Source of the DNA: Gammaproteobacteria bacterium
GTDB taxonomy: Bacteria; Pseudomonadota; Gammaproteobacteria; 21-64-14
DNA: 64,000 nt
Direction of reading: 5' to 3'
NCBI GenBank assembly: GCA_027013145.1
Contig: JALUXX010000016.1
Location: forward strand, 148,983 to 212,982
The notes under the pieces are model-generated. The model did not search any database and was not told the origin of the DNA. It saw nothing but the letters and a program-made list of their open reading frames with translations. Below are positions 3,991 to 25,492 of this stretch, one piece after another (position 1 is the first letter of the stretch; the number at the start of each line of letters is the position of its first letter). The translations under genes and the position numbers were made by a program.

Positions 3991-5133
3991 GTGGCCGGGA
4001 CCGAGACCGACGGGCAGGAACGCACCGAAAAGGCCACCTCCAAACGCCTGCAGGAGGCGCGCAAGAAGGGGCAGGTCCCGCGCTCGCGCGACCTCAATAC
4101 CACCCTCCTGCTGCTTCTGTCCTCGCTCGCCTTCCTCGTATTGGGACCGGGGATGCTCGAGGGCATGATCGGGATGATTCGCGGCGGATTGGAGATCCCG
4201 CGCGCGCGCCTGTTCGACCCCGAGCAACTGCTCACCGCGCTGGTGCACGATTTCCACTACACGCTGCTGTTGCTGGCGCCGTTTCTCCTGGTCACGTTGA
4301 TCGCCGCACTGCTCGGACCGCTTGCACTGGGCGGCTGGGCCTTCAGCGCCGAGGCGCTGGCCTTCGACCTCACCAAGCTCGATCCGGTGAAGGGTCTCGG
4401 GCGGCTGTTCTCGGCCCAGGGGCTCGTGGAACTGGTGAAATCGATCGCCAAGGTGGTCCTCGTTGGCGGCGTCGCCACGGCCATGCTGTGGCAGTTCCGC
4501 AACCAGATCCTGTCGATGAGCTACGAGCCGCTGTGGTCCGCGGCCGCACACGGGGCGCATCTGATCGGCGTCACGCTCCTGGTGCTGAGCGCGGCGCTGG
4601 TGGTGATCGCCGCCATCGACGTGCCCTTTCAGATCTGGAACCACGGCCGGCAGCTGCGGATGACGCGCCAGGAGGTCAAGGACGAGTTCAAGGAGACCGA
4701 GGGCGACCCGCAGATCCGCGCGCGGGTGCGCCGCCTGCAGCGCGAAATGGCTCAGCGGCGCATGATGGAGGAGGTGCCCAAGGCCGACGTGGTGGTGACC
4801 AACCCCACGCACTTCGCGGTGGCCCTGCGTTATGACCAGGAGCGCATGGGGGCGCCGCGGGTCGTGGCCAAGGGGGTCGACCTGGTGGCGCTCAAGATCC
4901 GCAGTGTCGCGCAGGCCAACGGAGTGCCGGTCTTCAGCGCACCGCCGCTCGCGCGGGCCTTGTACCACCGTACCAAGCTGGAGCAGGAGGTGCCGGCGGC
5001 CCTGTACGTCGCCGTCGCGCAGGTGCTCGCCTACGTCTATCACCTGCGTGCGGCGCGCGAGGGCGGTTTCGAGGAACCGCCGCCGCCGACGGATCTTCCG
5101 GTTCCCGATGAGCCGGGGGCCGGCCCGCGGTGA
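3991..5133 (+). CDS. flhB: Flagellar export switch protein FlhB
   Basis: FlhB, 380 residues, switches the export apparatus from hook-type to filament-type substrates. The N-terminus (GQERTEKATSKRLQEARKKG) is the canonical pre-membrane segment. Four transmembrane helices follow, then the cytoplasmic domain with the autocleavage site NPTH at residues 271-274. The tail beyond residue 355 is Pro-rich. GTG is the start; no better start lies nearby. A second, short FlhB-C-like protein is encoded at 20480-20779. Confidence 0.97.
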   Translation: MAGTETDGQERTEKATSKRLQEARKKGQVPRSRDLNTTLLLLLSSLAFLVLGPGMLEGMIGMIRGGLEIPRARLFDPEQLLTALVHDFHYTLLLLAPFLLVTLIAALLGPLALGGWAFSAEALAFDLTKLDPVKGLGRLFSAQGLVELVKSIAKVVLVGGVATAMLWQFRNQILSMSYEPLWSAAAHGAHLIGVTLLVLSAALVVIAAIDVPFQIWNHGRQLRMTRQEVKDEFKETEGDPQIRARVRRLQREMAQRRMMEEVPKADVVVTNPTHFAVALRYDQERMGAPRVVAKGVDLVALKIRSVAQANGVPVFSAPPLARALYHRTKLEQEVPAALYVAVAQVLAYVYHLRAAREGGFEEPPPPTDLPVPDEPGAGPR

Positions 5134-5179: not shown

Positions 5180-7264
5180 ATGAATCCGAGTGCCGTACTG
5201 ACGACGATCCGCGAGATGGCGCGCAACGGTCTGGGAGCGCCGATCCTGCTGATCATGATGCTGGCGATGGTGGTGCTGCCGCTCCCGCCCGTCGGCCTCG
5301 ACCTGCTGTTCACCTTCAACATCTCGCTGTCGCTGATCATCCTGCTGGTGGTCGTCTACAGCCGGCGACCGTTGGATTTTTCGATCTTCCCCTCGGTGCT
5401 CCTGGTCGGCACGCTGCTGCGTCTGGCCCTGAACATCGCCTCCACCCGCGTCGTGCTGCTGCACGGCCACGCCGGCCCGGGCGCCGCGGGGCACGTCATC
5501 GAGGCCTTCGGGGAATTCGTGGTCGGCGGCAACTACGCCGTCGGGCTGGTGGTGTTCATCATCCTGGTGATCATCAACTTCGTCGTCGTCACCAAGGGCG
5601 CGACGCGCGTCTCGGAGGTGACCGCGCGCTTCACCCTCGACGCGATGCCGGGCAAGCAGATGGCGATCGACGCCGACCTCAACGCCGGCATCATCACGCA
5701 CGAGGAGGCGCGCGAGCGGCGCGCGGAGATCAGCCGCGAGGCCGAGTTCTATGGTTCCATGGACGGCGCCAGCAAATTCGTGCGCGGCGACGCCATCGCC
5801 GGGATCCTGATCCTGTTCATCAACATCCTCGGCGGGCTCACCGTCGGCGTACTCCAGCATCACCTGCCGCTGCAGGAGGCCCTGCATACCTATACGCTGT
5901 TGACCATCGGCGACGGACTCGTCGCGCAGATCCCCGCGCTGCTGCTGTCGACCGCGGCGGCGATCATCGTCACGCGCGTGTCCTCGGCGCAGGACATGGG
6001 CGAGCAGGTGCTGGCGCAGCTCTTCGGCAGCCCGCGGGCGCTCGCCGTGACCGCGGCGGTGATCGGGCTGTTGGGGCTGATCCCGGGCATGCCCAACTTC
6101 GCCTTCCTCACGCTCGCCGCGGTCATCGGCGCGGCGGCCTACTGGTTGTACTGGCGCGGCGCCGCGGCCGCCGCCGAGGCCGCCGCCGCGGCCGCCCCGC
6201 AGGCGGAGCCCGCCGAGCCGCGCGATCTGAGCTGGGACGATGTACAGCCGGTCGACCTCATCGGACTCGAAGTCGGCTATCGCCTGATTCCCCTGGTGGA
6301 CAAGAATCAGGGCGGGCAGCTCATGAGCCGCATCAAGGGGGTACGCAAGAAGCTCTCGCAGGAACTCGGATTCCTGGTACAGCCGGTGCACATCCGCGAC
6401 GATCTGGAGCTGGCCCCCAACGCCTACCGGATCAGCCTGCTCGGGGTCCCGGTGGGCGAGTCCGTCGTCTATCCGGAGCGGGAGCTGGCGATCAATCCGG
6501 GGCAGGTGTTCGGGACCTTGCAGGGGATCCCGGCGAAGGACCCGGCGTTCGGCCTGGAGGCGGTCTGGATCGAGCCCGGGCAGCGCGACGAGGCGCAGGC
6601 CATGGGGTACACGGTGGTCGATGCCGGCACCGTCATCGCCACCCACCTCAGCCAGGTCATCCAGGACCACGCCCACGAACTGCTCGGTCACGAGGAGGTC
6701 CAGCAACTCCTCGACCTGCTGGCGCGCACCCAGCCCAAGCTGGTCGAGGACCTGGTGCCGAAGACGCTGCCGCTGGGGGTGGTGCTCAAGGTGCTGCAGA
6801 ACCTGCTCGCCGAGCGCATCCCGATCCGCGACATGCGCACGATTGCCGAAACGCTGGCGGCCCATGCGCCGCAAAGTCAAGACCCCGGCGTGTTGACGAC
6901 CGCCGTACGGACCGCGCTGGGGCGGCTGATTGTCCAGCATATCAATGGGATGAGCGGCGAGCTCCCGGTCATCACGCTGGATCCGGCACTGGAACAGATA
7001 TTGCACCAATCGCTCCAGGCGAGTGGCGAGGGCGGGGGTGGCATGGAACCGGGACTGGCGGAGCGGCTGCACGGCTCCCTGGCGCAGGCGGCGCAACGGC
7101 AGGAGGTCAACGGACAGCCGGCGGTACTGCTGGTGCCGCCGCAACTGCGGCCCTGGCTGGCGCGCTGGCTGCGCCACACCATCCCCGGGCTCAATGTGCT
7201 GGCCTATAACGAGGTGCCGGACAACCGCCGGATCCGGGTGCTGGCCACGGTGGGTCAGGCGTGA
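5180..7264 (+). CDS. flhA: Flagellar export gate component FlhA
   Basis: FlhA, 694 residues, is the nonameric export gate component with a membrane N-half and a cytosolic ring that binds chaperone-substrate complexes. The FHIPEP signature region is seen around residues 130-200 (KGATRVSEVTARFTLDAMPG). An Ala/Glu-rich linker near residues 325-345 joins the halves. The length matches the family (690-700). GGGGTGAGG lies just upstream of the ATG. Confidence 0.97.
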   Translation: MNPSAVLTTIREMARNGLGAPILLIMMLAMVVLPLPPVGLDLLFTFNISLSLIILLVVVYSRRPLDFSIFPSVLLVGTLLRLALNIASTRVVLLHGHAGPGAAGHVIEAFGEFVVGGNYAVGLVVFIILVIINFVVVTKGATRVSEVTARFTLDAMPGKQMAIDADLNAGIITHEEARERRAEISREAEFYGSMDGASKFVRGDAIAGILILFINILGGLTVGVLQHHLPLQEALHTYTLLTIGDGLVAQIPALLLSTAAAIIVTRVSSAQDMGEQVLAQLFGSPRALAVTAAVIGLLGLIPGMPNFAFLTLAAVIGAAAYWLYWRGAAAAAEAAAAAAPQAEPAEPRDLSWDDVQPVDLIGLEVGYRLIPLVDKNQGGQLMSRIKGVRKKLSQELGFLVQPVHIRDDLELAPNAYRISLLGVPVGESVVYPERELAINPGQVFGTLQGIPAKDPAFGLEAVWIEPGQRDEAQAMGYTVVDAGTVIATHLSQVIQDHAHELLGHEEVQQLLDLLARTQPKLVEDLVPKTLPLGVVLKVLQNLLAERIPIRDMRTIAETLAAHAPQSQDPGVLTTAVRTALGRLIVQHINGMSGELPVITLDPALEQILHQSLQASGEGGGGMEPGLAERLHGSLAQAAQRQEVNGQPAVLLVPPQLRPWLARWLRHTIPGLNVLAYNEVPDNRRIRVLATVGQA

Positions 7265-18164: not shown

Positions 18165-18560
18165 GTGGCACCCGTGAATATCGCGATCGGGACCGCGACG
18201 ACGATCGCCGCCGCGGCCGGCGTGGCGCTGGCGGCGCTGGCGCTGTGGGTCGCGCTGCTGGCACGCCGGCTCGCGCGCCTGCGGGGCGTCGTGGCGGCGG
18301 TGCGTGCCGACGCGGAATCCCTCTGCGCCGGCGCCAACGGCATCGACGCGCGGCAGAACCGGCTCGAGGCCGCGCTGCGCGCGCTCAGCGGCAAGCTGGA
18401 GCTGGTCGAGCTGCGCGACCCCGGCGAGCGCCCCTACACCCAGGCCATCCGCATGGTCCATCAGGGCGCCGGTTGTGAGGAACTGGTCCGCAACTGCGGG
18501 CTCGCGCGCGGCGAGGCGGAGCTGATCGTGATGCTGCACCGCGTCGACAAGGCGAGCTGA
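18165..18560 (+). CDS. DUF2802 family protein at the end of the chemotaxis operon
   Basis: A 131-residue protein with one N-terminal membrane helix (about 8-30), a coiled-coil-like stretch (about 40-85) and a C-terminal helix-turn-helix-like segment (ERPYTQAIRMVHQGAGCEELV, then CGLARGEAELIVMLHR). This matches the uncharacterised DUF2802 family, usually found after cheW in gammaproteobacterial flagellar operons (PA1465-like). The start is GTG at 18165 or 18174. It ends 15 nt before the convergent c-di-GMP gene. Confidence 0.8.
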   Translation: MAPVNIAIGTATTIAAAAGVALAALALWVALLARRLARLRGVVAAVRADAESLCAGANGIDARQNRLEAALRALSGKLELVELRDPGERPYTQAIRMVHQGAGCEELVRNCGLARGEAELIVMLHRVDKAS

Positions 18561-18575: not shown

Positions 18576-20390
18576 TCAGCCGTTCGCCACCAGTTCGCGT
18601 GCCGGTGCGCCGATGAAGTAGCCCTGGGCGTAGTCCACGCCCATCCGCCGCAGCAGTTCCAGCGTCTCGCGGTTCTCCACGAATTCGGCCACGGTCTGTT
18701 TCCCCAGCGTGTGCGCCACCGCCACCATCGACTCCACCAGGACGCGGTCGACGGGGTCCCGCGTGAGGTTGCTCACGAAGGTGCCGTCGATCTTGAGCAG
18801 GTCGACGGGAAACTGCTTGAGGTAGCCGTAGGAGTTGAATCCGGAGCCGAAGTCGTCGAGCGCGAAGCGGCAGCCGAGCGCGCGCAGGCGCTGGAGCATC
18901 TCGCGCGTGCGCGGCGGATCGGCGATCGCGGCGGTCTCGGTGATCTCGAAGGTGATGCGCTGTGCGTTGACGCCGGTCTCGCGCAGGCGCTGGCGCACCA
19001 GTCCGAGCAGGCCGGGGTCCTGGAAGGCGTGCCCGGAGAGATTGACGTGCAGCGCGATCTCCTCGGGCAGGGTGCGCAGCAGCTCGGTGGCCTCGCGCAG
19101 CACCCAGCGGTCGATCTCGCGGATCAGGCCCATGCGTTCGGCCACCGCCACGAACTCGGCCGGTTCCAGCAGCTCTCCGCGCTGACCTTCCATGCGCAGC
19201 AGGACCTCGTAGTGATTGATGCGCCCGTCGCGCAGTCCCTGGACCGGTTGGAACAGCAGCTGAAAGCCGCGGTTGGCGAGCGCTTCGCGGATCAGGGGGA
19301 CCCAGTAGGCGTTGCTGCGCAACTGGTGCAGGGTGTGGCGGTCGTCGAGGGCGAACACATGCACCTGGTTGCGGCCGCGGCTCTTGGCGATGAAGCAGGC
19401 TTGATCGGCGCGGCCCAGGATCTCCCCGGTGCTGGTGATGCGCCCGGGCTCGACCATCACGACGCCGATGCTGGCGCTGACGTGGTAGCCGCGGGTGTCC
19501 GATGAAAAGCGCAGCTCGTCGACGGCGCGGCGCAAGGCCTCGGCGCGCGCGCGGGCCTGCGCCGGATCGGTCGCGCGCAGGAGGATTGCGAAGTCGTCCG
19601 AGCCGATGCGCGCCAGCAGATCGGCGGCGTGCAGCTCGGGGCGCAGGGCTTCGGCGACCGCGATCAGCATGCGGTCGCCCACGGCGTGGCCTTCGGTGTC
19701 GTTGACCACCTTGAAGTGGTCCAGGTCGAGGTAGAGCAGGGCGGCGGTCTCGCGCCGGTAGCGGGCGTCGAGGACCGCCTGGTCCAGGGCCTGCTCGAGG
19801 CCGCGGCGGTTGGCGGTCCCGGTGAGGGCGTCGTGATCGAGCAGGTATTCCAGCCGCGCCTCCATGATTTTGCGCCCCGCCAGCTCCTCCATCAGCGCGC
19901 GCTCGCGGCTGTGGCGCAGATCGCGTTCGTGCTTCAGGGACAGTGCCCAGAGAAGGCGCGAGAACAGCTCCGAGGGTCGCAGCGGTGCGAACAGGACGTC
20001 GTCGGCGCCGGCGGCGTCCGCGTCGCCGAGCGTCCGGCGCGGGTCGCCCGCCGCTTCGGCGACCAGGATCACGGGGACCTCGCGCCACGCGCGATGGCTG
20101 CGGATGCCCCGGCACAGTCCGACCCCGTCCTGATCGGACAGGTGGGAGCCGACGATCACCACGTCCACCGAGCCGTTGAGGCTGTGTTCGCGACGGCGCA
20201 GGAACTCGATCGCCGCACCGGCCGTGGTGACGGTGCTCACGTTGACGAAGCCGCCGCGCGTGAGCAGGGTCGAGATCGCCGCCGGTGCCGCATCGGCGAC
20301 CAGGATGCGCATGCGCTTGGTCCGGGTCAGGTCCCGGGTCGACGGTGTCCCGCCGGGTTCTGGTTCTTTAGGATCCGAATCGGGTACCAC
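18576..20390 (-). CDS. Degenerate receiver-GGDEF-EAL protein, likely c-di-GMP phosphodiesterase
   Basis: About 604 residues with a GTG start at 20390, which has GGGGGAAG about 5 nt upstream; an ATG at 20312 would give 578. The order is receiver, GGDEF, EAL. The receiver reads VVIVGSHLSDQDG where the phosphoacceptor Asp is expected, and the conserved Lys is Ala (VLFAPL), so it is a pseudo-receiver. The GGDEF motif is GSDDF and the RxxD inhibitory site reads HAAD. The EAL domain keeps its key residues: EVLLR, HVNLSG, ITETA, DDFGSG, KIDG and AQGY. I infer an active phosphodiesterase with a regulatory GGDEF domain. Confidence 0.9.
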   Translation of the reverse strand: MVPDSDPKEPEPGGTPSTRDLTRTKRMRILVADAAPAAISTLLTRGGFVNVSTVTTAGAAIEFLRRREHSLNGSVDVVIVGSHLSDQDGVGLCRGIRSHRAWREVPVILVAEAAGDPRRTLGDADAAGADDVLFAPLRPSELFSRLLWALSLKHERDLRHSRERALMEELAGRKIMEARLEYLLDHDALTGTANRRGLEQALDQAVLDARYRRETAALLYLDLDHFKVVNDTEGHAVGDRMLIAVAEALRPELHAADLLARIGSDDFAILLRATDPAQARARAEALRRAVDELRFSSDTRGYHVSASIGVVMVEPGRITSTGEILGRADQACFIAKSRGRNQVHVFALDDRHTLHQLRSNAYWVPLIREALANRGFQLLFQPVQGLRDGRINHYEVLLRMEGQRGELLEPAEFVAVAERMGLIREIDRWVLREATELLRTLPEEIALHVNLSGHAFQDPGLLGLVRQRLRETGVNAQRITFEITETAAIADPPRTREMLQRLRALGCRFALDDFGSGFNSYGYLKQFPVDLLKIDGTFVSNLTRDPVDRVLVESMVAVAHTLGKQTVAEFVENRETLELLRRMGVDYAQGYFIGAPARELVANG

Positions 20391-20479
20391 GTGGCTTCCC
20401 CCGGACGGGCCGTTCCGGGCCCGCCCACACCATTTCGCCCGTTCCGACGGATACTTGAGGGCGAAGCCGCGGTCCGGTC

Positions 20480-20779
20480 TCAAGTCCGCCCGGGATCGTG
20501 GCCGGGGGGTGCGCGCCCGGCGAGAAAGTAGGCGAAGGCCAGGACCTCGGCGACCGCGACGTAGAGTTCCGGCGGAACCTCCTCCCCCAGCGGCACCTGA
20601 GCGAGCGCCGCCGCCAGCTCCGGCTCCTCGCGCAACGGGATCCCGCGTTCGCGGGCGATCCGCTCGATCCGTGCGGCGAGGTCCCCGCGCCCGGCCGCGG
20701 TGACCCGGGGGGCGTCGCGGCCGTCGTAGCGCAGCGCGACCGCCAGGTCGGACGGCTCGTTCCGTCTCCCTCCGCTCAT
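20480..20779 (-). CDS. FlhB C-terminal domain-like protein
   Basis: A 99-residue cytosolic protein resembling the C-terminal half of the FlhB cytoplasmic domain. DLAVALRYDGRDAPRVTAAG matches the part of FlhB just after the NPTH site, and the LGEEVPPELYVAVAEVLAFAY segment matches FlhB near its end. It has no membrane helices and no cleavage motif: EPSD stands where NPTH would be. Its start overlaps the stop of the FliK-like gene (ATGA). Such free-standing FlhB-C proteins are known but their role is uncertain. Confidence 0.85.
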   Translation of the reverse strand: MSGGRRNEPSDLAVALRYDGRDAPRVTAAGRGDLAARIERIARERGIPLREEPELAAALAQVPLGEEVPPELYVAVAEVLAFAYFLAGRAPPGHDPGRT

Positions 20780-21861
20780 GCCTCGAGATCCACCAGGGGT
20801 GCCCCGGGCAGGGACGGGGCGGGGCGCGGTCCGTGTCCGCGGTGGCACTCCAGGCGCCCGACCTTGAGGCCCGCCGCGCGCAGCCGGTCCCGGAGCTGCG
20901 GGAGGTGGCGGCAGGCCGCCGCGTGGGTCGGCGCCCGTTCCGACCACAGCGTGGCGTCGATGCCGCCCGCATCGAGGCGGATGCGTGCCTGCAGCGGTCC
21001 GAGCCGGGGCAGATCGAGGTGCAACAGGACCGACCAGGCGCGGGTCGCCGTGCGTTGCGGACGGTCGCCCGCTTCCGCGTCGATCCGCAGCTCCACGACA
21101 TGGGGTTCCGTTCCGAATACGGGGATCAGGACATTCCAGTGCGTGCCGCTCTGGCGCTGGGGCAGCGACGCGATCTGGTGGAGCTGCAAGCGCGCGAGCG
21201 CCGCCTCCGCCGCGCCGCGCAGGAGGCCGCCGGGGGTCGCGGTGTCCGGCGACGGAGAGCCGGCGTCGGGTCGGGCGGAGGGGCCGGCTCTCGACTCCAG
21301 CGCCGCCAGCAGGCGCCAGAGCGCGGCCTTGAGATCGCCCGCGAGCGCGGCCGCATCGGCGCCGGCGAGCAGCCGCGCCTCCAGGAACAGGCCGGAATCG
21401 AGGACGGCCGCGCGCAGGGTGTCGGCTTGGGTGAGTTCGGCGGGGCCGCGCAACGCGCCCAGCAGCGCCGCCGCCTCGGCCGGCGGCGCGGGGGCGGTCC
21501 GGGAGGCGGCGGCGATGAGGCGTTCCAGCAGCGGTTCGAGTGCTCCGGCCTGCGGCAGACTCGCCCGCAGGGCGGCGGCGACGTCCGCGGCGGGTCCTTC
21601 CGCCGCGGGCAGGAGCAGCTTCAGGACCGGCATCAGGCCCAGCGTCTCGACGCGCAACCGCAGCACCGTCCCCGGTACGAGCGGCGGCAGCCCGCGCCCG
21701 GCGGCGCGGATCAGGCGCCCCCCCAGACGCAGCGTCAGGGCATCGGCGCCGTGGGTCTCGACCAGCACCGCGCGGAGAGTGCCGCCGACGCGCCAGCCTC
21801 GTGTCCAGCCGCCGCCGTCGACGCGCAGCGAGAGGGAGGGATCGGCGGAGGGAATGCGCAT
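20776..21861 (-). CDS. FliK-like flagellar hook-length control protein
   Basis: A 361-residue Ala/Leu-rich protein. The C-terminal 150 residues look like the FliK C-domain: HWNVLIPVFG, a VELRIDAEA strand, SVLLHLDLPRLGPLQARIRL, ATLWSERAP and LRAAGLKVGRLECHRG. FliK proteins measure hook length and contact FlhB to switch export specificity. This gene lies in a two-gene operon with the FlhB-C-like protein. The start is uncertain; ATG at 21861 leaves room for a promoter, and 21927 is an alternative. Confidence 0.75.
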   Translation of the reverse strand: MRIPSADPSLSLRVDGGGWTRGWRVGGTLRAVLVETHGADALTLRLGGRLIRAAGRGLPPLVPGTVLRLRVETLGLMPVLKLLLPAAEGPAADVAAALRASLPQAGALEPLLERLIAAASRTAPAPPAEAAALLGALRGPAELTQADTLRAAVLDSGLFLEARLLAGADAAALAGDLKAALWRLLAALESRAGPSARPDAGSPSPDTATPGGLLRGAAEAALARLQLHQIASLPQRQSGTHWNVLIPVFGTEPHVVELRIDAEAGDRPQRTATRAWSVLLHLDLPRLGPLQARIRLDAGGIDATLWSERAPTHAAACRHLPQLRDRLRAAGLKVGRLECHRGHGPRPAPSLPGAPLVDLEA

Positions 21862-21939
21862 CGGACGATCGTGGCCGGGCACCTGAATGCGGGTGCCTTC
21901 GATCGGAAATCGGCACGGTTCCTGCATCCCTTTAGGGCG

Positions 21940-22857
21940 ATGAGCGAACCCGACGACAACGGTCGGTCCCCGCGGCCGCTGTGGTACACCCGTCGCGACG
22001 GGCGCGTGCGGGGCCCGTTTCCCGAATCGCTGCTGCGGCGTTATGTCCTCCTCGGCCGGGTCGGCGAGGCCGACGAAGTCAGCCGCGACCGGCAGTCGTG
22101 GGCGCCCCTGGAGTCGCATCCGGAACTCATTCCCGAACTGGTCACGGCCGCGCGCGACGACGAGGAGGCGCGCGCCCGACTGATGGCGGCCCGGTTGCGG
22201 GAGGATGAGCGTGACGTCTCCGACCGGCGCGCCGGCGGTGCCGCCGGCCCGGGGGGTGCGGAGCGCCGCGGCGGTGAACGCCGCGGGCGCGAGCCCGACT
22301 GGATGCTCCGCTACCGGCGCCTGCGGGCGCGCACGCGCGCGGAGGGCTCGCCGCAGCGCGCCCGGTGGGGTGTGGTGCTGGGCATCCTCGTTCTCGTCGG
22401 CGGACTGTTGTGGTATGCGGCCCTCCGCGGCCCGACGCCCGGGCGGCCGGGGGCACCCGACTGCAGCGCCCCGCCGCGGCCGGGGATCGACTGGAGCTAC
22501 TGCACGCTCGAGGGTCTGCGCCTGGCCGGCGCGGATCTGCGGCGTGCGAATCTGCGCAGCGCCGATCTGCGCGGCGCCGACCTGTCCGGTGCGCGGCTGG
22601 CGGGCGCCGACCTGTCCTATGCCGGTCTGGGGACCGCCGACCTCGCGCGTGCGGACCTCGCGCACGCGCGCCTGGTCGGGACCGGGCTCGGCGGCGCGGA
22701 CCTCCGCGGTGCCGACCTCGCCGGAAGCAATCTCTCCTACGCGAATCTGCGCGGCGCCCGGCTCGCGGGCGCGCGGCTCGCGGGCGCGAACCTTGATCAG
22801 GCCATCTGGACCGACGGGCGCGTCTGTGCGGAAGGCTCGGTTGGCGGGTGTCGCTGA
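21940..22857 (+). CDS. GYF_2-like and pentapeptide-repeat membrane protein
   Basis: A 305-residue protein. The N-terminal 60 residues resemble a GYF_2-type domain (LWYTRRDGRVRGPFP, then EVSRDRQSWAPLESHPEL). An Arg-rich charged region (about 70-135) precedes one membrane helix (about 140-160, GVVLGILVLVGGLLWYAAL). The C-terminal part is a pentapeptide-repeat beta-helix of about 17 units with the A(D/N)Lxx pattern. The topology suggests a cytosolic N-domain and an exported repeat domain. The function is unknown. It is divergent from the fliK-like gene. Confidence 0.8.
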   Translation: MSEPDDNGRSPRPLWYTRRDGRVRGPFPESLLRRYVLLGRVGEADEVSRDRQSWAPLESHPELIPELVTAARDDEEARARLMAARLREDERDVSDRRAGGAAGPGGAERRGGERRGREPDWMLRYRRLRARTRAEGSPQRARWGVVLGILVLVGGLLWYAALRGPTPGRPGAPDCSAPPRPGIDWSYCTLEGLRLAGADLRRANLRSADLRGADLSGARLAGADLSYAGLGTADLARADLAHARLVGTGLGGADLRGADLAGSNLSYANLRGARLAGARLAGANLDQAIWTDGRVCAEGSVGGCR

Positions 22858-22887: not shown

Positions 22888-23478
22888 CTATCGGTCCCGT
22901 TCTCCGTGGAAGGACTCGGTCGAGTAACGGTAGACCTTGATCGTGTCGGACCAGTAGTCCGGTGCCAACCCCGCCTTCTGTTTCAGCTCGCGCAGGAACG
23001 TCAGCGGATCGGCGATCTGCTCCCAGACGGCGGGCAGGAAAGTGGCGCGGTGGCGGCCGTCCTCCAGGATCACGCCGTCGATGCCGGGGCGCAGGGCGCG
23101 CGACAGCGCGCGCTCGTCGGCGGCGGGTACGGGTTCCGCCGCCCCCAGAACGGAGATGTGGATGTCGAGTCCGGAGAACTCCTCGGCGAGCAGGGGATGG
23201 AAGCGCGGGTCCTGAAAGGCCGCGGCGTAGGCGTTCTGCGCCACGTCCTGAACCAGCGGCCGCGTCGCCTGCAGCGCACCGATACAACCGCGCAGCTCGC
23301 CGCCGTGATGGAGGGTGACGAAGCTCGCACGCGGCTCCTGCAACGCGGCGGAGAACTGGAACGGGTCCACGGTGAGGGGGTGTCCGTATTCGAGGCCGTG
23401 GGCGATCGATTCGCGCGCCACCCGCAACAGGGCGCGGTGGTCCTCCCGGCTCAGGGTCGCCCCCTCAGCGGAAGGCAT
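22888..23478 (-). CDS. amrA: AmmeMemoRadiSam system protein A (AMMECR1 family)
   Basis: A 196-residue AMMECR1-domain protein. The conserved segment LRGCIGALQATRPLVQDVAQ is at about 65-85, followed by AFQDPRFHPL, and the family ends with a Tyr/Lys-rich strand (TIKVYRYSTESF). The AMMECR1, Memo and radical SAM proteins recur together in bacteria and archaea, and the joint function is not established. The start overlaps the end of the Memo gene by 14 nt. Confidence 0.93.
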   Translation of the reverse strand: MPSAEGATLSREDHRALLRVARESIAHGLEYGHPLTVDPFQFSAALQEPRASFVTLHHGGELRGCIGALQATRPLVQDVAQNAYAAAFQDPRFHPLLAEEFSGLDIHISVLGAAEPVPAADERALSRALRPGIDGVILEDGRHRATFLPAVWEQIADPLTFLRELKQKAGLAPDYWSDTIKVYRYSTESFHGERDR

Positions 23479-24268
23479 AGGACCCGTATCCCACGACGTG
23501 GTCGCGGCCCCCGGCGGTGTCGCCGGAGTTGCGCAGGTCCACGGTCTCGGCGCGCAGGCCGCGCCGCCGCGCCACGGTGAGCAGGCCGTTGATGGGGTCG
23601 CGCCCGCAGGCCTGTTCGTAGCCGATCGCCTCCGGCCGCAGCGCCTCGATCGCGCGCGAAGTGGCCGCGTCCATCGCGCGCGCGGTTTCGTAGTCGTGGT
23701 AGTGGCTGAGGTCCGAGCTGACCACCGGAAGGGTATGCGGGCCGTCCCACAGGGTCTCGATGATCTCCGCGACCTCGTCCGGTCCGGCCTCGCCGACCAC
23801 CAGCGGGACGAGGCGGAAACGCCCGAGCACGGTCTGCAGGAACGGGAGATGGACCTCGAGGCTGTGCTCGGCCGCATGGGCGGCGTCGAGCCGCCGCACC
23901 TGCGGCAGGCGCGCCAGCGCCTCGACGGCCTCGCGGTCGACGGGGATCTCCCCGAGCGGGGTGGCGAAGGCCGCCGCCGTCGGCACCGCCAGACCGCGGA
24001 AGGCGACATGGTGCGAGGGCCCCAGAAGCAGGACGCGCCGCACGTCTCCATGCGCCGGCCCCAGCAGTGCGTAGGCCGAGGCCGCCACCGGTCCGGAGTA
24101 GACGTAACCTGCGTGCGGTGCGATCAACGCCGCCGGCGGATCGCCCGCGGACGCCGCCGCGTCCAGGAAACCGCGCACGGTCGCCTCGAGCCGGTCCGGA
24201 TCCGCCGGATAGAACAGCCCCGCGACTGCGGCAGGTCGCACCCGTGTCTGAACAGCGGCCTCCGTCAT
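23465..24268 (-). CDS. amrB: AmmeMemoRadiSam system protein B (Memo family)
   Basis: A 267-residue Memo-family protein, related in fold to class III extradiol dioxygenases. The characteristic His residues are in PHAGYVYSG, GPSHHVAF and SDLSHYHDY, and a Cys lies in EQACGRDPING. GGAGGTGGG precedes the ATG. It forms an operon with the AMMECR1 gene and is divergent from the radical SAM gene at 24380, with a promoter and a palindrome in the gap. Confidence 0.94.
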   Translation of the reverse strand: MTEAAVQTRVRPAAVAGLFYPADPDRLEATVRGFLDAAASAGDPPAALIAPHAGYVYSGPVAASAYALLGPAHGDVRRVLLLGPSHHVAFRGLAVPTAAAFATPLGEIPVDREAVEALARLPQVRRLDAAHAAEHSLEVHLPFLQTVLGRFRLVPLVVGEAGPDEVAEIIETLWDGPHTLPVVSSDLSHYHDYETARAMDAATSRAIEALRPEAIGYEQACGRDPINGLLTVARRRGLRAETVDLRNSGDTAGGRDHVVGYGSYAFR

Positions 24269-24293
24269 TCCGTCCCACCTCCCCGCCCGTGGC

Positions 24294-24328
24294 TTGAAAA
24301 CGCACCGGGCCCTACCTATACAGTATAG
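24294..24328 (+). promoter_or_regulatory. Promoter with overlapping palindrome, amrB/amrS gap
   Basis: TTGAAA (24294-24299), 17 nt, then TATACA (24317-24322) reads as a strong sigma-70 promoter toward the radical SAM gene. A perfect palindrome CTATAC-A-GTATAG (24316-24328) covers the -10 element and is a candidate operator. On the opposite strand it offers TATACT as a -10 toward amrB, but I see no good -35 there. The region is AT-rich compared with its surroundings. Confidence 0.6.
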
Positions 24329-24379
24329 ACATAAACGCGCCCGGCGCGGCGGCGCGTCGGGCCGGCCGGCGGGGAAGCG

Positions 24380-25492
24380 ATGGCACAAGGAGAGGAAACG
24401 GCGATTCGACCGGGCCCGGACACGGTCCCCACGCGCCATTGGCACGCCCTGGAGGACGGGCGGGTGCAGTGCGACCTCTGTCCGCGGGAGTGCAGGCTTC
24501 ACGAGGGGCAGCGCGGGCTGTGCTTCGTGCGCGCCAATCTCGGGGGGCGGGTGGTGCTGACCACCTACGGGCGCTCGAGCGGTTTCTGCGTGGATCCGAT
24601 CGAAAAGAAGCCGCTCAACCACTTCCTGCCGGGTACCCCGGTGCTCTCGTTCGGTACCGCCGGCTGCAACCTCGCCTGCAAGTTCTGCCAGAACTGGGAT
24701 ATCAGCAAATCACGCGAGATCGACACGCTGGCCGACCGCGCCGAGCCGCACACCCTGGCGCGCGCGGCGCGGGCGCTGGAGTGCCGCAGCGTGGCGTTCA
24801 CCTACAATGATCCGGTCATCTTCATGGAGTATGCGATCGACGTCGCGGACGCCTGTCACGAGGTCGGCGTGCGTACGGTGGCGGTGACCGCCGGCTACAT
24901 CTCGCCCGGGCCCCGCGCCGAGTTCTTCGCGCACATGGACGCCGCCAACGTCGATCTGAAGGGATTCAGCGAGCGTTTCTACTGGAAGCTCACGGGGGGG
25001 CACCTGGAGCCGGTCCTCGATACGCTGCGCTATATCCGGCGCGAGACCCGGGTATGGCTCGAGATCACCACGCTGCTCATTCCGGGCGCGAACGATTCGG
25101 ACGCCGAGCTCGAAGCCATGACCGCCTGGATCGCCGAAAACCTCGGTCCGGACGTGCCGCTGCACTTCACCGCCTTCCATCCCGACTGGAAGATGACCGA
25201 CGTCGCGCCCACCCCGCCGCAGACGCTGACGCGGGCGCGCTGCATCGCGCTGCGCAACGGGCTGCGCTACGTCTATACCGGCAACGTGCACGACGAGGAG
25301 GGCGGCAGCACCTACTGCCACCAGTGCGGCACGCGCCTCATCGCGCGCGACTGGTACGTCATCACCGACTGGAACCTTTCGGCCGAGGGCCGTTGCCCCG
25401 CATGTGGGACGGCGTGCGCGGGCGTGTTCGAACCGCAGCCGGGCGCCTGGGGGGCGCGGCGCCTGCCGGTGCGGCTCGCCGCCTTCGGGTGA
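24380..25492 (+). CDS. amrS: AmmeMemoRadiSam system radical SAM enzyme
   Basis: A 370-residue radical SAM protein. The cluster-binding motif CNLACKFC is at about residues 96-103. An N-terminal Cys set ([10 protein letters not shown], near 34) and a C-terminal pair of CxxC motifs (CHQCG, CPACG) are likely metal sites. It resembles the glycyl-radical-activase-like branch named AmrS in this system. Substrate and product are not known. It converges on glgB with a 28-nt gap. Confidence 0.93.

Follow-up and report, generated by a model that had tools for sequence, protein, structure and literature searches.

A conserved gene pair of a FliK paralogue and a free-standing FlhB C-terminal homologue beside a gammaproteobacterial flagellar cluster

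The flhX-fliK2 locus

The window, by which is meant the whole 64,000-nt stretch of gammaproteobacterial DNA that was analysed, carries two overlapping genes, fliK2 and flhX (Table 1). From the sequence alone, an earlier note on this DNA had read positions 20480-21861 as a FliK-like protein paired with a soluble FlhB C-terminal fragment, and profile searches agree with it on both counts (PF02120, E 1.1e-16; PF01312, E 1.3e-21).

Table 1. Genes and sites at and around the flhX-fliK2 pair, with positions in the window.
Feature	Position	Strand	Description
canonical flhB	3991..5133	+	380 aa, NPTH present; PF01312 at 1-335, E 1.3e-131
DUF2802 gene	18165..18560	+	PF10975, E 3.7e-23; terminal gene of the flagellar/chemotaxis run
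response regulator-GGDEF-EAL gene	18576..20402	-	3' of flhX; PF00072, PF00990, PF00563
flhX	20480..20779	-	99 aa; stand-alone homologue of FlhB-CC, the C-terminal domain of FlhB after cleavage
fliK2/flhX start/stop overlap	20776..20779	-	4 nt; flhX begins within the final fliK2 codons
fliK2	20776..21861	-	361-aa FliK paralogue; PF02120, E 1.1e-16
candidate sigma-28-like promoter of the pair	21907..21934	-	TAAA-N16-GCCGATTT, 2 mismatches
pentapeptide-repeat protein gene	21940..22857	+	divergent from fliK2; PF00805, PF14237

The same note had placed the pair away from flagellar structural genes, which is not the case: it lies 2 kb beyond the end of a flagellar and chemotaxis cluster that holds the canonical flhB and fliK. 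The plus-strand run up to 18560 comprises fliM, fliN, the fliOPQR region, flhB, flhA, flhF, fliA, cheY, cheZ, cheA, cheB, motCD, parA, cheW and the DUF2802 gene, where flhB and the DUF2802 gene are named by family search and the other names are read from sequence and gene order. As the cluster ends with the DUF2802 gene, the pair stands at the cluster end and convergent to it, with the response regulator-GGDEF-EAL gene lying between that end and flhX. Canonical flhB is ~15.5 kb from flhX. It is the one full FlhB of this genome, in which no second full-length FlhB/SctU was found. A second, canonical fliK, which the note had proposed to look for, does exist; it encodes the one further Flg_hook (PF02120) protein of the genome, just before the window. 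On the other side of the pair, the GYF_2 (PF14237) match of the pentapeptide-repeat protein is just under the Pfam cut-off, and the candidate sigma-28-like box lies 46-73 nt 5' of the fliK2 start.

FlhX

FlhX aligns with PF01312 at profile positions 257-334/335 (77.6 bits, cut-off 24.4), and its homology is to FlhB-CC only, the membrane part and the CN part being absent from the 99 residues. In the alignment, the cleaved FlhB chains 3b0z_B and 3b1s_B start opposite residue 9 of FlhX, which leaves it an 8-residue leader, so that the protein does not begin just after the cleavage site as first supposed. N-E-P-S-D stands at the place of the FlhB N-P-T-H, and the NPxH motif is found in 0/28 fetched FlhX sequences vs 20/20 FlhB. 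The gene thus lacks both the membrane domain and the cleavage motif by which FlhB is recognised, and has the features of FlhX-type proteins, namely homology to FlhB-CC only and no autocleavage NPTH. It scores 71.6 bits with the NCBIfam model TIGR00789 (flhB_rel), under the curated cut-off of 117.35, and is therefore no member of that model.

The suggestion that the short protein equals the fragment released from FlhB holds approximately, but many FlhB-conserved positions differ, the LARA-[IL]-Y stretch of FlhB is replaced, and three single-residue deletions relative to FlhB are present in 28, 28 and 29 of 29 sequences. The early-substrate pocket is kept, with A at A286 in 27/29, P at P287 in 29/29 and A at A341 in 29/29, while L344 is I in 19 and L in 10 of the 29. 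According to a passage of PMC9307174, early substrates make use of these four FlhB residues, and position 344 also functions with I or V. An AlphaFold2 model of FlhX (pLDDT 83) superposes on Salmonella FlhB-CC (3b0z_B) with an rmsd of 1.5 over 80 columns at 44% identity, and also resembles PscU-C (5cul). FlhX thus has the fold and pocket of FlhB-CC/FlhB-CCD, but differs in its lack of NPxH, its three deletions and its encoding by a gene of its own.

In a tree of 29 FlhX and 20 FlhB C-domains the two fall into separate groups (100/100, rough bootstrap). The broken pair at L070 was excluded from the trees and from residue counts, and L078, where FlhX has no adjoining FliK2, was used in FlhX counts only.

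FliK2

The Flg_hook match of FliK2 covers residues 271-345 (60.9 bits, cut-off 29.8); the FliK C-domain signal, without which the earlier note would have given up its reading, is therefore clear. No NCBIfam match was found for FliK2 at E 0.01. The AlphaFold2 model (pLDDT 83, loose tail) has a predicted N-terminal barrel (~9-83), a helical domain (~90-231) and a FliK-type switch domain (~241-341), followed by an LVDxxA tail. In a Foldseek search with this model, FliK-C (2rrl) ranks first (probability 1.00, E 0.018) and the switch domain of PscP (5cuk) fifth (probability 1.00, E 0.087). The FliK2 profile matches 2rrl with E 0.00016, and VIA aligns the switch domain with that of PscP 5cuk over 79 residues (Z 5.6, rmsd 3.7).

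Canonical FliK (Salmonella; PF02120) has the switch domain and an LVDxxA-like tail in common with FliK2, but combines them with a ruler and an aromatic residue in the tail. In FliK2, the ruler region appears from the model to be replaced by the folded barrel and helical domain. The second-last tail residue is aromatic in 24/25 FliK and in 0/28 FliK2. The position aligned with Salmonella FliK I304 (a numbering inferred from the 2rrl alignment and a passage of PMC6972891) is A in 22, S in 3 and I in 3 of 28 FliK2, vs I in 11, V in 11, A in 2 and L in 1 of 25 canonical FliK, and W-A-E is often close to it in FliK2. When the switch domains of 28 FliK2 and 25 FliK are placed in one tree, the two separate with a split of 99/92 (rough bootstrap, few columns). 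FliK2 accordingly has neither the clade nor the tail of canonical FliK. Six canonical-type matches away from FlhX were listed with the FliK2 profile (G015, G037, G089, G215, G255 and G275), and these span only ~324-399 of its 408 positions.

The kinship of the FliK2 barrel was also sought. The top VIA matches are eIF5A, S1 and OB-type chains with Z of 6.0 or less, which perhaps reflect merely a common arrangement, and no family was assigned. By eye, the barrel-like N-terminal motif seems two- or threefold in the FliK2 of L059, L064 and L065.

Distribution of the pair

FlhX is found in 18 of 55 related genomes, the window's own included, and has a Flg_hook match alongside in all 18. Among the FlhB-bearing genomes of these 55 relatives, a second Flg_hook protein is present in 17/17 with FlhX and 0/8 without it. 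In the whole class, 164 of 280 genomes have a PF01312 match, and at least 106 of the 280 have FlhX, chosen among the matches listed for the length of the frame and a location different from FlhB's. Again among the matches listed, 99 of these genomes have FliK2 no more than 400 bp from FlhX and on its strand, and three more (G101, G244, G165) have it upstream on that strand at 413-1829 bp, leaving 4/106 with no nearby FliK2 (G149, G227, G251, and G207 with a match ~350 kb off). FlhB is on the FlhX contig in 62 cases and within 30 kb in 55; in 52 of those 55, FlhX lies 3' of flhB and is read from the other strand, which is also the arrangement of the window. The exact 4-nt fliK2/flhX overlap recurs in 23/28 fetched loci, and no fusion of FliK2 with FlhX was noticed among the loci that were read. 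The arrangement is different in G149 (C53) and G227 (C1), where an FlhX-like gene precedes flhB by 11-13 kb on one and the same strand and no nearby FliK2 is listed.

When one genome per species was scanned with FlhX, 24 loci were recovered, of which 18 are FlhB with the cleavage motif and six are short FlhX-type genes from beyond the class: Natronospirillum (L083), Calditrichota (L091), Acididesulfobacter (L103), and L100, L104 and L106. The last ends at a contig edge and is classed as FlhX by its short frame. The other five have upstream DNA, and each carries there an ORF that matches Flg_hook, over the cut-off in L083 and L091 and under it in L100, L103 and L104. No FlhX relative was found in viral contigs in a single-protein scan. 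The one plasmid match proved to be not FlhX but an FlhB-type gene of 1098 nt, flanked by fliR and flhA in the flagellar cluster of an actinobacterium.

The pair occurs in genomes with flagellar genes, with one weak exception: G233 has a weak FlhX-type match (E 1.9e-10 with the FlhX profile, 3.6e-4 with PF01312) and no FlhA or rod matches. Four genomes that were candidates for FlhX without a flagellum (G035, G055, G260, G267) all have Flg_bb_rod matches, and G055 has FlhA as well. G055, G260 and G267, with FlhX and rod genes but no FlhB found, are probably incomplete assemblies.

Co-divergence and loss

Pairwise distances of FlhX and FliK2 are correlated across 14 genomes (r 0.56, Mantel p 0.0005; 0.40 without G027). 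The other pairs give 0.03 for FlhX-FlhB, 0.20 for FlhX-FliK, 0.01 for FlhB-FliK2, 0.26 for FliK-FliK2 and 0.06 for FlhB-FliK; since the last two proteins are known partners and yet uncorrelated, the distance test is no proof of binding. G008, G014, G049 and G035, which have no FlhB or complete FliK locus, are left out of this test. The co-divergence speaks for a common history of the pair, and gene linkage and joint transfer may explain the correlation.

The pair has been lost at this locus from a sister species (G001), in which 368 bp lie between syntenic flanks that are 73-84% identical, vs 1622 bp with the pair. The gap holds an FlhX remnant (L107, 2278-2433; tblastn E 8e-7), and no FliK2 match was found in it. 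G001 retains rod genes, the Flg_hook protein FliK and an FlhA that sits where a contig ends; FlhB was not found, and its place would fall past the contig end. In G035, which has no FlhA or FlhB and keeps some rod-type genes, both pair genes are broken. By eye, a similar repeat-like stretch interrupts both of them (L070, ~5482-6860).

In the class as a whole, 58/164 genomes with a PF01312 match are outside the FlhX list (G035 and G233 among the 58). A flagellar genome without the pair and these 58 together indicate that its role is not essential. The pair is thus a conserved, overlapping unit of two separate clades, with mostly joint presence, one joint loss and one joint breakage. The two-gene arrangement put forward in the earlier note is upheld by the 4-nt overlap, the conserved pairing, the joint loss and the co-divergence.

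Promoter and neighbouring genes

A sigma-28-like box with at most two mismatches is found 5' of fliK2 in 6/26 loci, vs 3/26 on the opposite strand and a mean of 0.6 and maximum of 3 in 60 rounds of shuffling; L066 and L081, with too little DNA 5' of fliK2, are outside this count. The box hints that the pair might be made after the export switch in some lineages. Sigma-54 boxes with at most one mismatch are found 5' of fliK2 in 3/27 loci (L060, L062, L079).

A homologue of the response regulator-GGDEF-EAL gene lies 3' of flhX on the same strand, within ~0.6 kb, in 6/29 fetched loci (L062, L064, L065, L075, L076, L077). GYF_2-pentapeptide homologues are divergent from fliK2 in 16/29. Across the class, a GYF_2-pentapeptide gene is present in 65/106 FlhX genomes vs 14/58 others with a PF01312 match (odds ratio 5), and in 6/116 genomes without a PF01312 match.

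Relation to known systems

FlhX-type proteins of H. pylori (HP1575), Campylobacterota and Actinobacteria are likewise free-standing and FlhB-CC-like. In contrast to these, the FlhX described here is coupled to a FliK paralogue, usually in a fixed place after the che genes. The ylqG-ylqH genes of B. subtilis may be a pair of the FlhX/FliK2 type. In H. pylori, the FlhB C-terminal homologue is reportedly a 'spare part', going by the title of Wand et al. 2006. The flhX-fliK2 pair is also reminiscent of the injectisome proteins PscP and PscU, as the FliK2 switch domain resembles PscP 5cuk and FlhX resembles PscU-C 5cul, but it differs from them in its flagellar context, its apparent lack of a ruler and its soluble partner.

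FlhX is named among flagellar proteins in passages of PMC9321776 and PMC10746217, and a passage of the former lists flhX and fliK together outside the main cluster of Nitratiruptor. No paper devoted to a FliK paralogue and FlhX as a unit was found in the open-licence PMC literature. FlhX-type proteins themselves are thus already known, and what is new is the evidence for the pair as one conserved, dispensable flagellar module.

Proposed function of the pair

The two genes are very likely to be functionally linked. As FlhX and FliK2 are found together in many flagellated bacteria, they probably act jointly on the export switch of the flagellum. The best explanation, which we put forward tentatively and at a little short of an even chance, is a dedicated, dispensable flagellar accessory module that would adjust the early-secretion mode.

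In Salmonella, according to PMC13344023, cleaved FlhB-CC keeps the apparatus in early secretion and is required for early export, and it disappears in a FliK-dependent manner once the hook-basal body is complete. The proposal made there is that FliK removes FlhB-CCD and that its last five residues are what acts on this domain. By analogy, FlhB-CC and FliK of that scheme seem to have soluble counterparts in FlhX and FliK2. FlhX would be a soluble stand-in for FlhB-CC, one not produced by cleavage and never membrane-tethered, that docks early (rod and hook) substrates. FliK2 is a FliK paralogue in which a folded N-terminal part is predicted to replace the exported ruler and in which switch domain and tail have diverged. 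Its switch domain may grip FlhX as that of FliK grips FlhB-CC, in a complex that would remain cytoplasmic. FlhX could then take the position of FlhB-CC or bind leftover early substrates, with FliK2 setting when it becomes free. The net effect would be that the pair adjusts how firmly the apparatus keeps, or goes back to, the early-secretion mode. The most likely reading is therefore a cytoplasmic FliK2-FlhX complex that would control the supply of an FlhB-CC-like protein to the apparatus or to early substrates. Given the lost tail aromatic and the mostly A residue at the I304-equivalent position, FliK2 could also be inactive on anything like FlhB-CC.

Several other explanations were weighed against this. 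Free FlhX might act as a decoy or tuner, delaying the switch by competition with the FlhB-CC of the apparatus for early substrates or canonical FliK; the part of FliK2 would then be just to set how much FlhX is free. Both the FlhB-CC fold and the early-substrate pocket are kept, and FliK-FlhBC binding is weak (8 uM, in a passage of PMC4526367), so competition by FlhX is plausible. However, residues conserved in FlhB are lost from FlhX, for example in the LARA-[IL]-Y stretch, and FlhX divergence tracks FliK2 more than canonical FliK, which leaves the decoy fairly unlikely. It is improbable that FlhX is a plain spare part backing up FlhB-CC, in the manner of HP1575 of H. pylori, with FliK2 having no role in the switch and being a linked chaperone or hitch-hiker: the kept fold and pocket and the precedent in the title of Wand et al. 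2006 favour it, but the switch domain and tail that FliK2 retains belong to a clade of their own, and its loss in G001 was joint with that of FlhX.

The neighbouring genes raise a different prospect, in which the pair signals together with the response regulator-GGDEF-EAL and GYF_2-pentapeptide proteins, for instance from c-di-GMP to flagellar export, rather than acting on the hook-length switch itself. The divergent GYF_2-pentapeptide gene of 16/29 loci, and its enrichment in genomes with FlhX (65/106 vs 14/58), point that way. Against it, the neighbours were not found at many pair loci (some of the loci being short) and the GYF_2 gene also occurs in 6/116 genomes without PF01312, and we consider a signalling role quite improbable. 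Lastly, the loss of the pair in G001 and the breakage of both genes in G035 would suit a decaying duplicate without function, but the class and other lineages alike conserve the reading frames, clades, pocket residues and overlap, so that such decay is hardly credible for the pair as a whole.

The preferred reading, a module that adjusts early secretion, can be taken further, to FlhX as an exchangeable soluble plug of the early mode, released by FliK2 and re-docking after FliK has ejected the cleaved domain of FlhB; this is a speculative extension and improbable in its full form. If true, the switch, which is described as irreversible in Salmonella, would be adjustable or resettable here, for example for repair, and the sigma-28-like box would put FlhX synthesis after the switch. 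PMC13344023 argues for Salmonella that export switches when FliK drives the removal of the cleaved FlhB domain. In many bacteria the pair encodes a soluble protein related to this domain, together with a dedicated partner of FliK type. It offers a natural test of whether the cleaved domain of FlhB can be removed or replaced, and of whether tuning or resetting of the switch is possible.

Other genes of the window

Beyond the pentapeptide-repeat protein gene, at 22888-25492 of the window, AMMECR1 and Memo genes adjoin a radical-SAM-looking gene. These are probably the usual AMMECR1-Memo-AmrS group.
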